DNA of 64,000 nucleotides, from contig NZ_CAJGZH010000003.1 in NCBI RefSeq assembly GCF_904846075.1, positions 1 through 64,000 of the forward strand. Direction: 5' to 3'. The position numbers were made by a program, and so were the translations under genes. This DNA comes from Psychrobacter glacincola (lineage in GTDB: Bacteria; Pseudomonadota; Gammaproteobacteria; Pseudomonadales; Moraxellaceae). This document shows positions 3,438-38,791 of the stretch, piece after piece (position 1 is the first letter of the stretch; every line of letters starts with the position of its first letter). The notes beneath the pieces are model-generated. The model saw nothing but the letters and a program-made list of their open reading frames with translations, was not told where the DNA came from and did not search any database.

Positions 3438-4328
3438 TTATAGCGCGCCGCTAAACGTATCACAAGACTGCACGTTGCCACTTTCCAAACCACGAGTGAA
3501 CCACTGAACACGCTGCTGACTGGTGCCATGAGTGAAATTATCAGGTACGACTGCTCCACCGCTAGCACGCGCTAAACGATCATCACCAATTTGACCAGCG
3601 GCATTGATGGCCTCATCGATATCACCTGCCTCCAAAAACTGTACACGCTCTTGGTTGCGTTGTGCCCAAACCCCAGCAAAACAATCAGCTTGCAGTTCTT
3701 GTAGTACTGATAGCTTATTGGCTTGTGCACGAGTGACTTGACGGCTGGCTTCATTAACTTGCTGGCTGATGCCTAACAAAGTCTGTACGTGGTGTCCAAC
3801 TTCATGCGCAATAACATAAGCTTGTGCAAAATCACCCGCTTTCCCTTGATTATCTTGGTCGCCAGAGCCTTGCTTATCACCCGTGATACCGAGATTTTGG
3901 CGCATTTCTACAAAGAAAGATTTGTCTAGATAGACAGTCTGATCGCCTGGGCAATAAAACGGGCCCGTCGCGGAGCTAGCACTGCCGCAGGCTGAGCTAA
4001 CTTGACCATTGAAGAGAATCAATGATGGCTCCTGATAGGTGCTGCCTGCTTCTTTGAATATCTGATGCCAAACTTCTTCAGTATCAGCCAATACTACTTT
4101 GACAAACTGCGTATCTCGATCGTTACTTGTCGCAGGTTCGGTAGAGGCACTGCTATTGCCACCGCCTGCGACTACTTGACCCGTCTGTAAAGCGGTCATT
4201 GGATTTACCCCAAATACCAGCCATAAAATGCCAGCAATAATAATACCACCGATACCACCGCCTATCATTTTGCCACCACCACTGCTGGTGCGCACATTGG
4301 AACTGCCGCGTCTACCTTGCCATTTCAT
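3438..4328 (-). CDS. neutral zinc metallopeptidase, YpfJ family
   Basis: 296 aa from the ATG at 4328, which has AGGA nine bases upstream; an in-frame TTG at 4343 lacks one. A short basic N-terminus with Gly/Arg-rich residues is followed by one membrane helix (IIIAGILWLVFG), so the catalytic domain is probably exported and membrane-tethered. The zinc signature HEVGHH is near residue 175, with the supporting region LQELQADCFAGVWAQ downstream supplying the expected third ligand. This matches the putative neutral zinc metallopeptidase family (YpfJ/KPN_02809), whose substrates are not known. It is convergent with the lipoprotein gene and stands alone. Confidence 0.9.
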   Translation of the reverse strand: MKWQGRRGSSNVRTSSGGGKMIGGGIGGIIIAGILWLVFGVNPMTALQTGQVVAGGGNSSASTEPATSNDRDTQFVKVVLADTEEVWHQIFKEAGSTYQEPSLILFNGQVSSACGSASSATGPFYCPGDQTVYLDKSFFVEMRQNLGITGDKQGSGDQDNQGKAGDFAQAYVIAHEVGHHVQTLLGISQQVNEASRQVTRAQANKLSVLQELQADCFAGVWAQRNQERVQFLEAGDIDEAINAAGQIGDDRLARASGGAVVPDNFTHGTSQQRVQWFTRGLESGNVQSCDTFSGAL

Positions 4329-33650: not shown

Positions 33651-34128
33651 GTGAATTCTCTCTTTCGCAGGTATACCAAAAAGGGCATAATTATATCACA
33701 GTCTTGTTTTATTGAAAACATAAACTGCGCTTATTTAATTATTTATTAACAATAGCTTAAATGCCCATCGATGTAAAATACAATTGATCATAACCACTGA
33801 TTTTTAACTGAAGATACTACCTCTACATCATGTCCAAGTGGCTCGTTGCTGTATTATTCGGTGCTATATTACTCAGTACTATATTAGTGCAAATTTGAGT
33901 ATTCAATTGTTGCCTACTGTTTTAAAGCCAGTCGTGTCATTCATTGATTATGCTACTCTATGACATAGTCAGCGAGTGAATGATGCTATCGCCTACCGAA
34001 TTGCTCAATTTCTCAAGAATCGCAACCATTATGCTACTCATAAGTATGACACGTTGTTTTTGAACGACATAAAAAGCACCATTTTTACACTAAACTCAAT
34101 AAAGCATCTTTTAATATGTTGGATCCAT
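33651..34128. other. intergenic region between rpsP and the EnvZ-like gene
   Basis: About 480 bases with promoters for the divergent rpsP operon and kinase gene. An in-frame GTG at 33976 would add 51 residues to the kinase, but that peptide is not like the family N-terminus, so I treat 33976-34128 as leader. Confidence 0.5.
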
Positions 34129-35607
34129 ATGACCACACCAAAATCGCAACCACGTCGCAAAGGGCGGTTTACGCGCTCTTACTCCAACACTTGGCTGACA
34201 ACCTTAATGGTCTCTTTCATTGTTCTGATCAGTGTCAGCTTGTCGATTCTGTTTTTTTGGCGCAGTCTATATTTACCCGAGCTTAAAAACCATGCGCGTT
34301 ACTTGACGAGCGAGCTGCAGTTGATGAATAGTGTCAACAAAGACTGGAAAAATCGTCCTGAAGTACGCCAATGGATTTATCAACACTCGCATGTCGTGGT
34401 AGTGAATAACCCTAATGATTTTCCAGCAGTGTCTGATAAGGCCTTTGTCGGCGTCTTTACTGATGTCTTACAACGCGAAATAGGTGCGCAATTGGGTCGA
34501 CCTGTCGAGGTTTATTTTAAATTCAAACCGACACCGCAGCTTTGGGTGCAAGACAGCCGTGATGACAGCTTTTGGATTCGTGAACCCGTGGTTTATTACT
34601 CGCAATATAGTCCAGCACTGTTGGTGCTGTTTCTTATTGGATTACCTATTTTATCGCTGCTGACCATTATTCTACTGGCGCGGCAATTAAATCGTCCGCT
34701 ACGATATTTACAGCGTGCTGCGACCAACTATATTCGCCTCGGTCATGCCACTACGTTGCCAACACAAAAAGGGCCTACGGAGATACGTCAGGTCAACATG
34801 GCATTCAATCGTCTATTCACGACGTTAAGTCAAGCACAAAAAGAGCGTACAATTATGCTTGCTGGTATCTCGCATGATCTGCGAACGCCCTTAACTCGTA
34901 TGCGTTTGACTGCTGAGATGCTACCTGATGACTTTTTTCGAGAGGGATTAATTTATGATATTGAAGACATGGATGCCATTTTAGAGCAGTTTATCTCATT
35001 TATGAAAGATGGCTCCGATGAGCCAGTCAGCCTAACCAATTTGGATACCATCTTTAATGAGATCATGGTGCAATTTGCACCAATGGAGTTCATCTATCAA
35101 TCAGAGTGTCACAAAGTGGTTCCTGTGCGCCCCATGTCTATCAAACGCCTTGTGATCAATCTGGTCAATAATGCCAAGCGTTATGGCAAACCGCCCATTT
35201 ACCTGTCAGCGACTGTTGTGCCAACTTTTATAGAAACCATTGAAGAGGAAGATAGCGATGTCGTCAGTGAAAATGTCGTCAATAGAGAGGCGCAAGAACA
35301 ATTGCTGATATGTGTGCGTGACTGTGGTGATGGCGTTGCAGAAGATCAGTTAGAACGTATTATGCAGCCTTTTGAACGCGGAGAGACAGCACGTACCACA
35401 CAAGGCAGTGGTTTAGGTCTAGCGATTGTCGATCGTATTGCCAGATTGCATCATGGGACGGTAGAAGCCATTAATCATCCCGACGGAGGTTTACAAGTGT
35501 GTGTGCGTATTCCTCTGCTTTCCAAGGTTGCTGGAGATACAACCATGGCAAACGATACAGAAAAAATGCCTGTCTTTAATGACAAGACTTGGAACAAAGA
35601 AGACTGA
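34129..35607 (+). CDS. EnvZ-like osmosensor histidine kinase
   Basis: 492 aa from the ATG at 34129 (MTTPKSQPRR). A basic cytoplasmic N-terminus leads to a first membrane helix (about 24-44), a periplasmic domain (about 45-160), a second helix (about 163-183), HAMP (NRPLRYLQRAATNYIRLG), the dimerisation/phosphoacceptor helix with His 249 in LAGISHDLRTPLTRMRL, and the ATPase domain (VINLVNNAKRYG, CVRDCGDGVAE, GSGLGLAIVDRIARLHHG). The H-box is the EnvZ type. An acidic insert (EEEDSDVVSENVVN) interrupts the ATPase domain. No ompR-like gene lies beside it: the only regulator nearby is bfmR, oriented with its own kinase. Confidence 0.88.
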   Translation: MTTPKSQPRRKGRFTRSYSNTWLTTLMVSFIVLISVSLSILFFWRSLYLPELKNHARYLTSELQLMNSVNKDWKNRPEVRQWIYQHSHVVVVNNPNDFPAVSDKAFVGVFTDVLQREIGAQLGRPVEVYFKFKPTPQLWVQDSRDDSFWIREPVVYYSQYSPALLVLFLIGLPILSLLTIILLARQLNRPLRYLQRAATNYIRLGHATTLPTQKGPTEIRQVNMAFNRLFTTLSQAQKERTIMLAGISHDLRTPLTRMRLTAEMLPDDFFREGLIYDIEDMDAILEQFISFMKDGSDEPVSLTNLDTIFNEIMVQFAPMEFIYQSECHKVVPVRPMSIKRLVINLVNNAKRYGKPPIYLSATVVPTFIETIEEEDSDVVSENVVNREAQEQLLICVRDCGDGVAEDQLERIMQPFERGETARTTQGSGLGLAIVDRIARLHHGTVEAINHPDGGLQVCVRIPLLSKVAGDTTMANDTEKMPVFNDKTWNKED

Positions 35608-35689: not shown

Positions 35690-35869
35690 CTAGTCTTTGT
35701 TTCCAATGATAGGTGGAATATATTTGGCGCTATTCGTAAACGCTAATGGCTGAGTAATATTTTCTTGCGCTGCTGTTAACGTTTGCGTCGTCGATGGCTG
35801 CTGCAAGAATAAATAGTAGCCCAACGTTATTGCATTTAGTACCACCAAACCACCAAATAAATATGGCAT
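35690..35869 (-). CDS. 59-aa single-pass membrane protein, uncharacterised
   Basis: A short reading frame with an excellent GGAGGGCAAAGG ribosome binding site directly before its ATG at 35869. N-terminal hydrophobic helix (YLFGGLVVLNAITLGYYLFL, residues 3-22), then a short polar tail of about 37 residues ending NKD. It lies 203 bases downstream of bfmS on the same strand and convergent with the EnvZ-like gene, so it may share the bfmS transcript. No family recognised; the N-terminus resembles anchors of small SPOR-like or accessory membrane proteins, which is only an impression. Confidence 0.65.
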   Translation of the reverse strand: MPYLFGGLVVLNAITLGYYLFLQQPSTTQTLTAAQENITQPLAFTNSAKYIPPIIGNKD

Positions 35870-36071
35870 CCTTTGCCCTCCTCTGATTTAAAGCTATATT
35901 CAAACCGCTAATAATAAAAATTAACCGACAATTCTACCTAAGGTGTGTATTCATTCTAAACATGAAATTGAGAACACTGCTTAGAAATTGAGCAAGTTTA
36001 TTTGTCACACACTGCTTAATTGATGCTGCTATTTTTATACTAAAAAATAACGAAAATCCTGTGCAGTGGCA

Positions 36072-37760
36072 TTATTTATCTTCAAAACCACGCTCGCTTT
36101 TTTCTTGCGTCAGTTCATCAGCAGCCAAAATTTGTGTCAGTGGTTTGATAGGCCACGTCATGACAAATCGTGCACCGCCAAGCTCTCGGCTCTCATCGAC
36201 TTTCATACTACCATTAAACCAAAAGGCAATGCGCGATACGATAGACAAGCCTAAGCCATAGCCGCCTGAGGCGCGTGTGCGACTGTCATCTAAACGTGAA
36301 AATGGAATAAAGACCTTTTCGCGATCTGCTTCTGGAATACCATGACCATCATCCTCAACACTAACAAAAGCATTGCCCTTTCTGACGCCAGCACTAATGA
36401 TAATCGTGGTTTCTGCATAACGTAAGGCATTGCCCGCAAGATTTTGAATCACACGGTGTAAATAACGCCTATCTGCGACAGCGGTTACTTTAGCATTCGG
36501 TAGCTTGGTTACTATTTTGATAGGCTTACCCAAGGCATTGGTTTCACGCTCAATCTGCTCCAATAACTCTCTAAGATTGACTGGTTCTAAATCCAGCTTT
36601 GGTGAGCCTTCTTCGAGCTTAGCATAAGTCAAAATCTCATCAATCAAGCCATTAAGCGCTTCGATATCTTCATCAATAAAATCACGCTGCATAAAACGTG
36701 AGTCTTCATCATCCGTATCAGCCAACATATCAACGGCAAAACGAATACGAGCCACCGGTGTACGCAGCTCATGTGATACCGCTCGCGTTAATTCTCGCTG
36801 CGACTCAATAAGGCGCTTGATATGCGAGGTCATGGCATTAAAAGTCGCGGCTAAACGGGCAATTTCATCCTGCCCAATTACTTGAACTTGACTTTCAAGA
36901 TTACCTTTACTCACCTCATTGACGCCAACCTGAATCAACTGCAATTTACGCTCAAGTGGAAAAATCAACGCATACACGCCTAAGCTGATCAAAAACATGC
37001 TGATAAGAATCATACTAATAATCAGATTAAGTGGGAACCAATTGAATAATGGCACCGGACCAATCAATATCGCCATGTCATTGATTTCAGAAGGCACCAC
37101 TACTCTAATAGCCGAATTACTTTTACTGCTATTGGTATCTTGTAAGGAAATAACCACTTCATCTCGGCGTAATCGTGCAAGCTGATCGGTATCCAAATCC
37201 AGTGTATTGACGGCTTTAAACTCTAAAGGAAAGGAAAACTTTTTTTCCAGTTCAGCCAAACGGGCACGCTTGTCAGATAACGTCACATAGTAAGACAAAT
37301 CATCCAATAAAAACACAGCGATTGCCCGTACTTGCTGCTCAGTCACTTGCGATATTCTGGCGGTCAAAACACTTTGATTGTCTGGTAGACGATAATACAC
37401 ATCGGCATAGACAGGTTGCTCGGTATAACGAACGACCGTATTGCCATTTTCAAAACGCCGCAGTTCACTGGCATTAAAGTCCACTTCATCAATAGGCAAA
37501 ACTTTGAATTCTGAGCCAAATAAACTACTGGCATCAGACAACCAATATTCACGCTGCTCTTCACTTTCCTGATGAGCAATACCTTCACTCACCAGATGAA
37601 AAGCCCCTGTTGCCATGTTTTCACGGTAGGATTGGACGCGCTCTTTGTTGATGGTATCCATCAACAGTTGAGCAAACAATGCCACACACAAACAGACTAT
37701 GAGTAGCCCAGCATAAATACGAACAAAGATACTGTGTTTTAAAGAATAGACTAATGACAT
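36072..37760 (-). CDS. bfmS: BfmS-like sensor histidine kinase
   Basis: 562 aa from the ATG at 37760; an in-frame TTG at 37775 is an alternative. First membrane helix (about 15-32), a large periplasmic sensor region (about 35-240), second helix (LIISMILISMFLISLGVYALI), HAMP, phosphoacceptor His about 330 in AVSHELRTPVARIRFAVDML, and HATPase (VIQNLAGNALRYAE, SVEDDGHGIPEAD, GGYGLGLSIVSRIA). Partner of BfmR just upstream; in Acinetobacter the pair controls envelope, biofilm and stress traits. A terminator sits between the two genes, so bfmS expression relies on read-through or its own promoter. Confidence 0.9.
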   Translation of the reverse strand: MSLVYSLKHSIFVRIYAGLLIVCLCVALFAQLLMDTINKERVQSYRENMATGAFHLVSEGIAHQESEEQREYWLSDASSLFGSEFKVLPIDEVDFNASELRRFENGNTVVRYTEQPVYADVYYRLPDNQSVLTARISQVTEQQVRAIAVFLLDDLSYYVTLSDKRARLAELEKKFSFPLEFKAVNTLDLDTDQLARLRRDEVVISLQDTNSSKSNSAIRVVVPSEINDMAILIGPVPLFNWFPLNLIISMILISMFLISLGVYALIFPLERKLQLIQVGVNEVSKGNLESQVQVIGQDEIARLAATFNAMTSHIKRLIESQRELTRAVSHELRTPVARIRFAVDMLADTDDEDSRFMQRDFIDEDIEALNGLIDEILTYAKLEEGSPKLDLEPVNLRELLEQIERETNALGKPIKIVTKLPNAKVTAVADRRYLHRVIQNLAGNALRYAETTIIISAGVRKGNAFVSVEDDGHGIPEADREKVFIPFSRLDDSRTRASGGYGLGLSIVSRIAFWFNGSMKVDESRELGGARFVMTWPIKPLTQILAADELTQEKSERGFEDK

Positions 37761-37997
37761 ACGTGCCGTAACCAACTTAATGAATAAAAACTGCCGACAT
37801 CATTCAGCAAACAAGCGCTGCGTGATAAATGATATCTAACACTGTTGAATAAAAAACCATTCTGGCTGCTGTATTTTAATTTATAACTGAGCATCACCTA
37901 AAATCCATTTGCCTCATGTATATTTAGGCAGCACCCACAATAATTGCTTAATTAAACCACATAACGCTGTATTTAAGTTTAAAAATTAAAATTTAGC

Positions 37998-38074: not shown

Positions 38075-38791
38075 TTAGTTGCCTTCTTTAACGAACAAAT
38101 ACCCTTTACTACGAACGGTTTTGATACGTTTTGGATTTTCTGGATCATCACCGATTTTTGGACGAATGCGTGAGATACGAACGTCAATTGAGCGATCTTG
38201 ACCGTCATATTCAATACCACGTAGACGCTCAAAGATATCTTCACGCGAAAGAATTCGACCCGCATTAGAAGCAAGCAACCATAATAAGTCATATTCAGCA
38301 CTGGTGAAATCAACCAACTCATCACCTAAATTCACTGAACGACCGCCATTGTCAATGACCAGTTCACCAAATTCTAGGCGCTGTGGTACATCTTCTGATG
38401 GGGCATTTTCTGAGCGACGTAATAACGCACGAATACGTGCTAACAAGACACGTGGCTGAGCAGGTTTAGCGACATAATCATCCGCACCCATCTCAAGACC
38501 CAGTACCTGATCCATATCTTCAGTACGCGCAGTCAGCATCAAAATAGGATTCTGATAATGCGGGCGTACTTCACGACATACCGTCAGTCCATCGCTACCA
38601 GGAAGCATGACATCAAGTACGACCAAATCTGGTTGTTCACTGACGATGCGACGAATAGCACGATTACCATCGGTTTCGATAGCGACTTCTAAACCATTTT
38701 TGACCAAGTAATCTTGAGTCAACATGGCCAGACGCTCATCATCCTCAACAATCAAAATTCGGGGGGTGTTGTCTTCTTCATTCGTTGTCAT
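38075..38791 (-). CDS. bfmR: BfmR-like response regulator
   Basis: 238 aa OmpR/PhoB-type regulator. Receiver domain with acidic pair Asp 17-Asp 18, phosphoacceptor Asp 60 (LVVLDVMLPG), Thr 87 and Lys 109 (DDYVAKP). Winged-helix DNA-binding domain (FTSAEYDLLWLLASNAGRIL, RSIDVRISRIRPKIGDDPEN, IKTVRSKGYLFVKE). The sequence follows Acinetobacter BfmR almost throughout, more closely than RstA of E. coli. ATG with a GAGGATAT ribosome binding site. Pairs with bfmS downstream. Confidence 0.93.
   Translation of the reverse strand: MTTNEEDNTPRILIVEDDERLAMLTQDYLVKNGLEVAIETDGNRAIRRIVSEQPDLVVLDVMLPGSDGLTVCREVRPHYQNPILMLTARTEDMDQVLGLEMGADDYVAKPAQPRVLLARIRALLRRSENAPSEDVPQRLEFGELVIDNGGRSVNLGDELVDFTSAEYDLLWLLASNAGRILSREDIFERLRGIEYDGQDRSIDVRISRIRPKIGDDPENPKRIKTVRSKGYLFVKEGN

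Follow-up and report, generated by a model that had tools for sequence, protein, structure and literature searches.

A conserved 59-residue membrane protein between bfmS and envZ in Psychrobacter and its likely descent from a SPOR-protein anchor

In the 64,000-nucleotide stretch of Psychrobacter glacincola DNA analyzed here (the window), a short reading frame, orf59, lies between two sensor kinase genes and raises the question of whether it is a gene, whether its product serves either kinase, and where it came from. A sequence-only reading had proposed a 59-aa membrane protein at this place, without naming a strand. The frame is present on the minus strand, together with the ribosome binding site, membrane helix, and stop codon of that proposal (GGAGG, residues 2–21, and TAG; Table 1). 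Its product, translated from the minus strand, is MPYLFGGLVVLNAITLGYYLFLQQPSTTQTLTAAQENITQPLAFTNSAKYIPPIIGNKD (59 aa).

Table 1. Positions of orf59, its signals, and its neighbors in the window.
Feature	Position	Strand	Basis or detail
envZ-like sensor kinase gene, convergent neighbor	33976..35607	+	EnvZ best match, below cut-off
Terminator-like hairpin and T-run past the orf59 stop, within the 3′ end of envZ	35569..35586	-	consensus match
orf59, 59-aa small membrane protein	35690..35869	-	ATG 35869, TAG 35690-35692
orf59 codons 41-59, C-terminal tail with conserved N...PPxIGxK motif	35693..35749	-	median omega 0.122
orf59 codons 2-21, predicted transmembrane helix	35807..35866	-	AlphaFold2, conservation
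Shine-Dalgarno GGAGG of orf59	35877..35881	-	7 nt 5′ of ATG
bfmS-like (RstB-like) sensor kinase gene, upstream neighbor	36072..37775	-	NCBIfam best match RstB, below cut-off
bfmR-like (RstA/OmpR-family) response regulator gene	38075..38791	-	family matches

AlphaFold2, run on orf59 aligned with 21 homologues (22 sequences in all), predicts the helix with pLDDT 84 and 91 per 10-residue block, followed by a second, weak helix at residues 27–39 and a loose, low-confidence tail; the model has a mean pLDDT of 70.4 and a pTM of 0.32. Of the 19-residue segments sampled on the Kyte-Doolittle scale, the most hydrophobic begins at residue 3 and averages 1.58. Two blocks are conserved, the helix (M1, F5, L8, N12, and the near-invariant G17 and Y18) and the C-terminal N...PPxIGxK motif. 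A promoter scan of the region found three candidates against 2.0 expected, and a search of the window's genome returned one match, with no second, full-length copy elsewhere.

A family-level search for orf59 matched 53 of 149 genomes, and a six-frame search of whole genomes with an orf59-family profile matched 140 of 348. Matches were found in 95 of the 105 genomes of Psychrobacter, the window's genus (g1), 93 of them free of an internal stop in the profile search (TAA in G066, TGA in G320), and in 15 genomes of two further genera, six of g7 and nine of g10, the latter including a Moraxella. The loci behind 50 of the 53 family matches were examined, 48 in these three genera and two in g11. The frame is intact at 56–60 codons in 47 of the 48, and that of P. 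pacificensis (L016) stops at codon 36; one has a GTG start codon and the other 47 have ATG. By eye, most same-genus homologues have an AGGAG-like site ahead of the start, and such sites are weaker in g7 and g10.

Selection was assessed on 59 named Psychrobacter loci, which yielded 56 distinct DNA sequences, 55 of them intact. Across these 55 the pooled pN/pS is 0.206 and the median pairwise omega (dN/dS) is 0.088, from 1166 usable pairs that are not independent. Codons 1–22 are the most constrained (median omega 0.041, versus 0.123 for codons 23–59), and variability is highest at third codon positions (0.36 versus 0.12 and 0.06). Stop codons interrupt the +1 and +2 frames of all 55 sequences (pN/pS 1.3 and 2.7), and the three antisense frames give pN/pS values of 1.2, 2.6, and 0.32, the last value probably reflecting codon positions that mirror those of orf59. 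The frame conservation and synonymous bias on which the sequence-only reading had staked its case are therefore both present: orf59 is a real protein-coding gene under purifying selection, and a chance open reading frame is rejected by the low omega and the closed alternative frames.

In the usual order, bfmR-bfmS-orf59 stands tail-to-tail with envZ; envZ is convergent to orf59 in all 48 loci of g1, g7, and g10, bfmS lies upstream in 46, and both neighbors are in place in 59 of 59 named Psychrobacter loci. This synteny, with the omega values, bears out the earlier proposal of a small, conserved membrane protein encoded after bfmS wherever Psychrobacter carries the gene. The name bfmS is that reading's label, and the true start of the gene probably lies inside the TTG-started frame. 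Across the named loci the bfmS-orf59 spacer has a median of 178 nt (range 29–774) and the gap between orf59 and envZ a median of 63 nt (range −4 to 361). The terminator scan of the window found a single candidate, after orf59, which is the chance frequency (shuffles, mean 0.7), and none in the bfmS spacer; L077 has a terminator-like match similar to the window's. Of the 59 loci, 13 have a terminator-like hairpin in the 150 nt that follow orf59 (4 in single-base shuffles).

Outside g1, g7, and g10, the orf59 profile gave 30 weaker matches (E-values 4.5e-7 to 0.008), confined to the first 38 residues except for one false match (L239, g15). The profile search is blind to position, and inspection of all 30 places put 25 directly upstream of mlaF: 11 of 12 in g15 (presumably Acinetobacter), 4 of 4 in each of g9, g11, and g5, and the only match in each of g14 and g12. 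Among these 25, 19 are peptides of 22–75 aa that precede mlaF, while five (four in g5, one in g12) form the N-terminal part of SPOR-type proteins about 220 aa long, encoded in the order birA-coaX-SPOR-mlaFED. The g14 genome (G014, locus L140) reads bfmR-bfmS-50-aa peptide-mlaF-mlaE-mlaD, with 13 nt between the peptide and mlaF, and so bridges the bfmRS and mla contexts through the peptide. An order-wide search matched 7 of 145 genomes, two of them of the same genus; the five new, weak matches are N-termini of frames of 234–261 aa. Judged by eye, we take the 3-kb loci of L072 and L073 to hold both birA- and coaX-like frames, L075 a coaX-like frame, L074 a birA-like frame, and L076 to be a cytochrome-c-maturation-like locus, its match probably due to chance.

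The long proteins are recognizable as SPOR proteins. All five aligned SPOR-type proteins (a set that includes L072, L073, and L074 and excludes L075) match the Pfam SPOR domain at a threshold of E 1 (best 1.7e-9), and matches over the cut-off were obtained for the g12, g3, and g6 proteins and one g5 protein; at E 1, no Pfam SPOR match was found for orf59 or any of 30 homologues. In hhalign comparisons, the orf59 family aligns with the mla-linked peptides at 97.6% probability and with the SPOR proteins at 95.2% (E 2.6e-8, residues 1–31). The similarity spans only the 24–31 N-terminal residues of the hydrophobic helix, the tails do not align, and codons 1–22 of orf59 correspond to the part in common with the SPOR-protein anchors. 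Like orf59, the coaX-linked SPOR proteins (PF05036) begin with a single helix of the pattern M-x-x-L/V-F-x-x-L-V-x-x-N, and their locus is bridged to that of orf59 via g14 and mlaF; unlike them (about 220–240 aa), orf59 has 59 residues, no SPOR domain, and a tail that cannot be aligned with theirs. The mlaF-upstream peptides of g9, g11, g14, and g15 have the same anchor and a similar size, but they precede mlaF, whereas orf59 lies between bfmS and envZ, and the PPxIGxK motif is not common to both.

The long and short forms have complementary distributions. Among 20 genomes checked for adjacency of SPOR and coaX, the two genes are neighbors in G004, G012, and G032, and in G018 the long protein lies on another contig than coaX. 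The 16 others, from genera without the long protein, have no SPOR gene next to coaX (nearest 12 kb, in G011), with G007 not open to judgment as its coaX sits at a contig end; 14 of these 16 carry the small peptide, and G008 and G105 have also lost orf59. In longer stretches surrounding coaX, the g5 SPOR protein found no match in G000, G016, G014, G033, G011, G044, G095, or G075. The gene after coaX in G000 lies on the opposite strand, and the two SPOR matches of this genome are both away from coaX. Of 22 genomes searched for MlaE, 10 had a match over the cut-off, comprising all ten from nine other genera and none of five from g1 (G000, G023, G008, G105, and G043), three from g7, three from g10, and one from g8; a single broken scrap below the cut-off was seen in g10. 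At E 1e-40, an MlaF query gave matches in 3 of 12 genomes, all outside g1, g7, g8, and g10. The Mla lipid transporter thus seems to have been lost in the g1/g7/g8/g10 lineage. Unlike an Mla accessory subunit that occurs only together with MlaFEDB, orf59 is carried by eight genomes without MlaE over the cut-off (G000, G023, G050, G033, G006, G075, G010, and G089).

On comparative sequence evidence, orf59 is most likely the surviving anchor of a coaX-linked SPOR-domain protein of Pseudomonadales whose peptidoglycan-binding SPOR domain was lost. The starting point would be the arrangement seen in some Moraxellaceae genera (g5 and g12), where the SPOR gene heads the mla operon; loss of the SPOR domain would have left a short peptide before mlaF, bfmRS would then have come to lie upstream of this peptide, as in g14, and mla would finally have been lost in the Psychrobacter/Moraxella lineage, where envZ is now convergent to orf59. 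This order of gene moves leans on one bridging genome (G014) and on genomes that are partly drafts, and the distant homology on a short hydrophobic stretch, with position carrying most of the weight. Four matches count against an anchor origin in that they do not directly precede mlaF: the g8 peptide follows rhlE in a genome where no mla was found, the g16 peptide lies between rhlE and queG on a contig that also holds coaX, about 4 kb upstream, the g6 protein stands in the order birA-coaX-SPOR with mlaF on another contig, and the g3 SPOR protein is on another contig than coaX. Taken whole, an anchor microprotein without SPOR domain, kept after the loss of Mla and working with an envelope partner, is the account we hold to be somewhat likelier true than false.

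The sequence-only reading had instead looked to the adjacent kinase, on the grounds that small membrane proteins beside two-component systems often modulate it. MgrB is a small bitopic modulator that acts on the sensor kinase PhoQ, and orf59 is like modulators of this type in its size, its single helix, and its place next to kinase genes, with sensor kinases on both sides and the near-constant synteny described above. An MgrB-like regulator of BfmS (or EnvZ), acting by helix-helix or periplasmic contact, is nonetheless very unlikely, and was rejected as the first-choice reading, on distribution: unlike a modulator gene that co-occurs with its kinase, orf59 is tied to neither. In two g7 genomes (G050 and G056) it lies beside envZ while bfmS is elsewhere, followed by other genes. 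Ten of the 105 same-genus genomes lack orf59, and nine of these keep bfmS, eight with envZ convergent to it; in G301, also without orf59, no bfmS match was found at E 1e-60. In a tree of 89 bfmS sequences, eight of the nine fall in one clade (support 0.996) and G043 stands apart, so orf59 was lost at least twice with bfmS kept; P. pacificensis adds one more nonsense change with bfmS kept. Likely homologues in nine other genera adjoin neither kinase (tblastn with both), the mlaF context prevailing there, and the 12 g15 loci yielded no bfmS match. In 21 of the 59 named loci a terminator-like hairpin lies in the spacer between bfmS and orf59; single-base shuffling, a weak control, gave none in 59. 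The link between orf59 and BfmS is weak, and the proposed modulation of the kinase finds no support here.

The anchor origin must also be weighed against convergence, in which orf59 would be unrelated, its helix merely resembling a SPOR anchor, and the mlaF-upstream matches would form a separate family. The confinement of the match to 24–31 hydrophobic residues fits such an account, as does L076, whose unrelated locus indicates that chance can produce matches between such helices; but 25 of 30 genome-wide matches at one place, directly before mlaF, and the genome that joins bfmRS and mla through the peptide make convergence unlikely. That orf59 is a decaying remnant without function is extremely improbable. 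Of 105 same-genus genomes, 12 have lost the gene or carry a broken copy, the copy with an in-frame TGA in G320 belongs to a genome whose bfmS is sister to the orf59-less clade (support 0.995), and the mlaF-linked peptide is down to 22 aa in some g15 genomes. Purifying selection, which extends to the tail, rejects a pure remnant for the genus as a whole, although decay may describe single lineages. As to the broken and missing copies themselves, in G320 the interrupted frame (L168:3204-3500) is followed by what looks by eye like an endonuclease/exonuclease/phosphatase frame in place of envZ, and in G306 (L163) a transposase-like frame, also by eye, follows bfmS where relatives have orf59 and envZ.

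Under the anchor origin, orf59 would be a single-span inner-membrane microprotein with an N-terminal helix and a tail of about 37 residues. Charge does not settle its topology, as at most one charged residue precedes the helix and the net tail charge ranges from −3 to +1 among the 22 aligned sequences. The SPOR domain of proteins of the coaX-linked type lies in the periplasm, from which we infer an N-in, C-out orientation; by this analogy, the tail of orf59 is probably periplasmic. The likeliest mode of action would be docking of helix and tail onto an envelope protein, and in Psychrobacter this partner would not be MlaFEDB, nor would BfmS or EnvZ be obligatory. A bolder version, which we consider distinctly unlikely, has a septal SPOR protein reduced to an anchor microprotein that docks its old partner (divisome or envelope machinery) through the helix and the new PPxIGxK tail, having begun within the mla operon, outlived the loss of the entire Mla system, and taken on a role in envelope sensing or balancing next to BfmRS and EnvZ.

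No convincing Pfam or NCBIfam match was found for the orf59 family; the best scores (NCBIfam mycoplas_twoTM, E 0.011, in 3 of 30 members; Pfam, E 0.19) were taken as chance. The literature, as far as the sources were available to us, yielded no paper joining a SPOR domain with coaX and birA, none joining a SPOR domain, mlaF, and Acinetobacter, and none on Psychrobacter with the Mla system and Moraxella or on Psychrobacter small proteins with ribosome profiling; the phrase "downstream of bfmS" did not occur, and among the matches listed no title concerned the orf59 locus. The gene points to a small-protein family, with no convincing match in Pfam or NCBIfam, that selection has maintained in several genera. 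It suggests a traceable route to a small membrane protein, through domain loss from a larger envelope protein and then operon loss, and it steers functional work away from the obvious neighboring kinase.

The mlaF-upstream peptides deserve attention in their own right. Those of g9 (L142, L143, L155, and L233) and g11 (L049, L050, L139, and L153) have pN/pS values of 0–0.31 over 12 pairs, and with this constraint they are probably genuine proteins, as yet unnamed, encoded at the mla locus; NCBIfam gave no family name for ten aligned peptides of this kind. In three g15 loci (L154, L236, and L237, each at 4001-4069), the peptide upstream of mlaF, a possible leader for the mla operon, is only 22 residues long and is preceded by a ribosome-site-like sequence.
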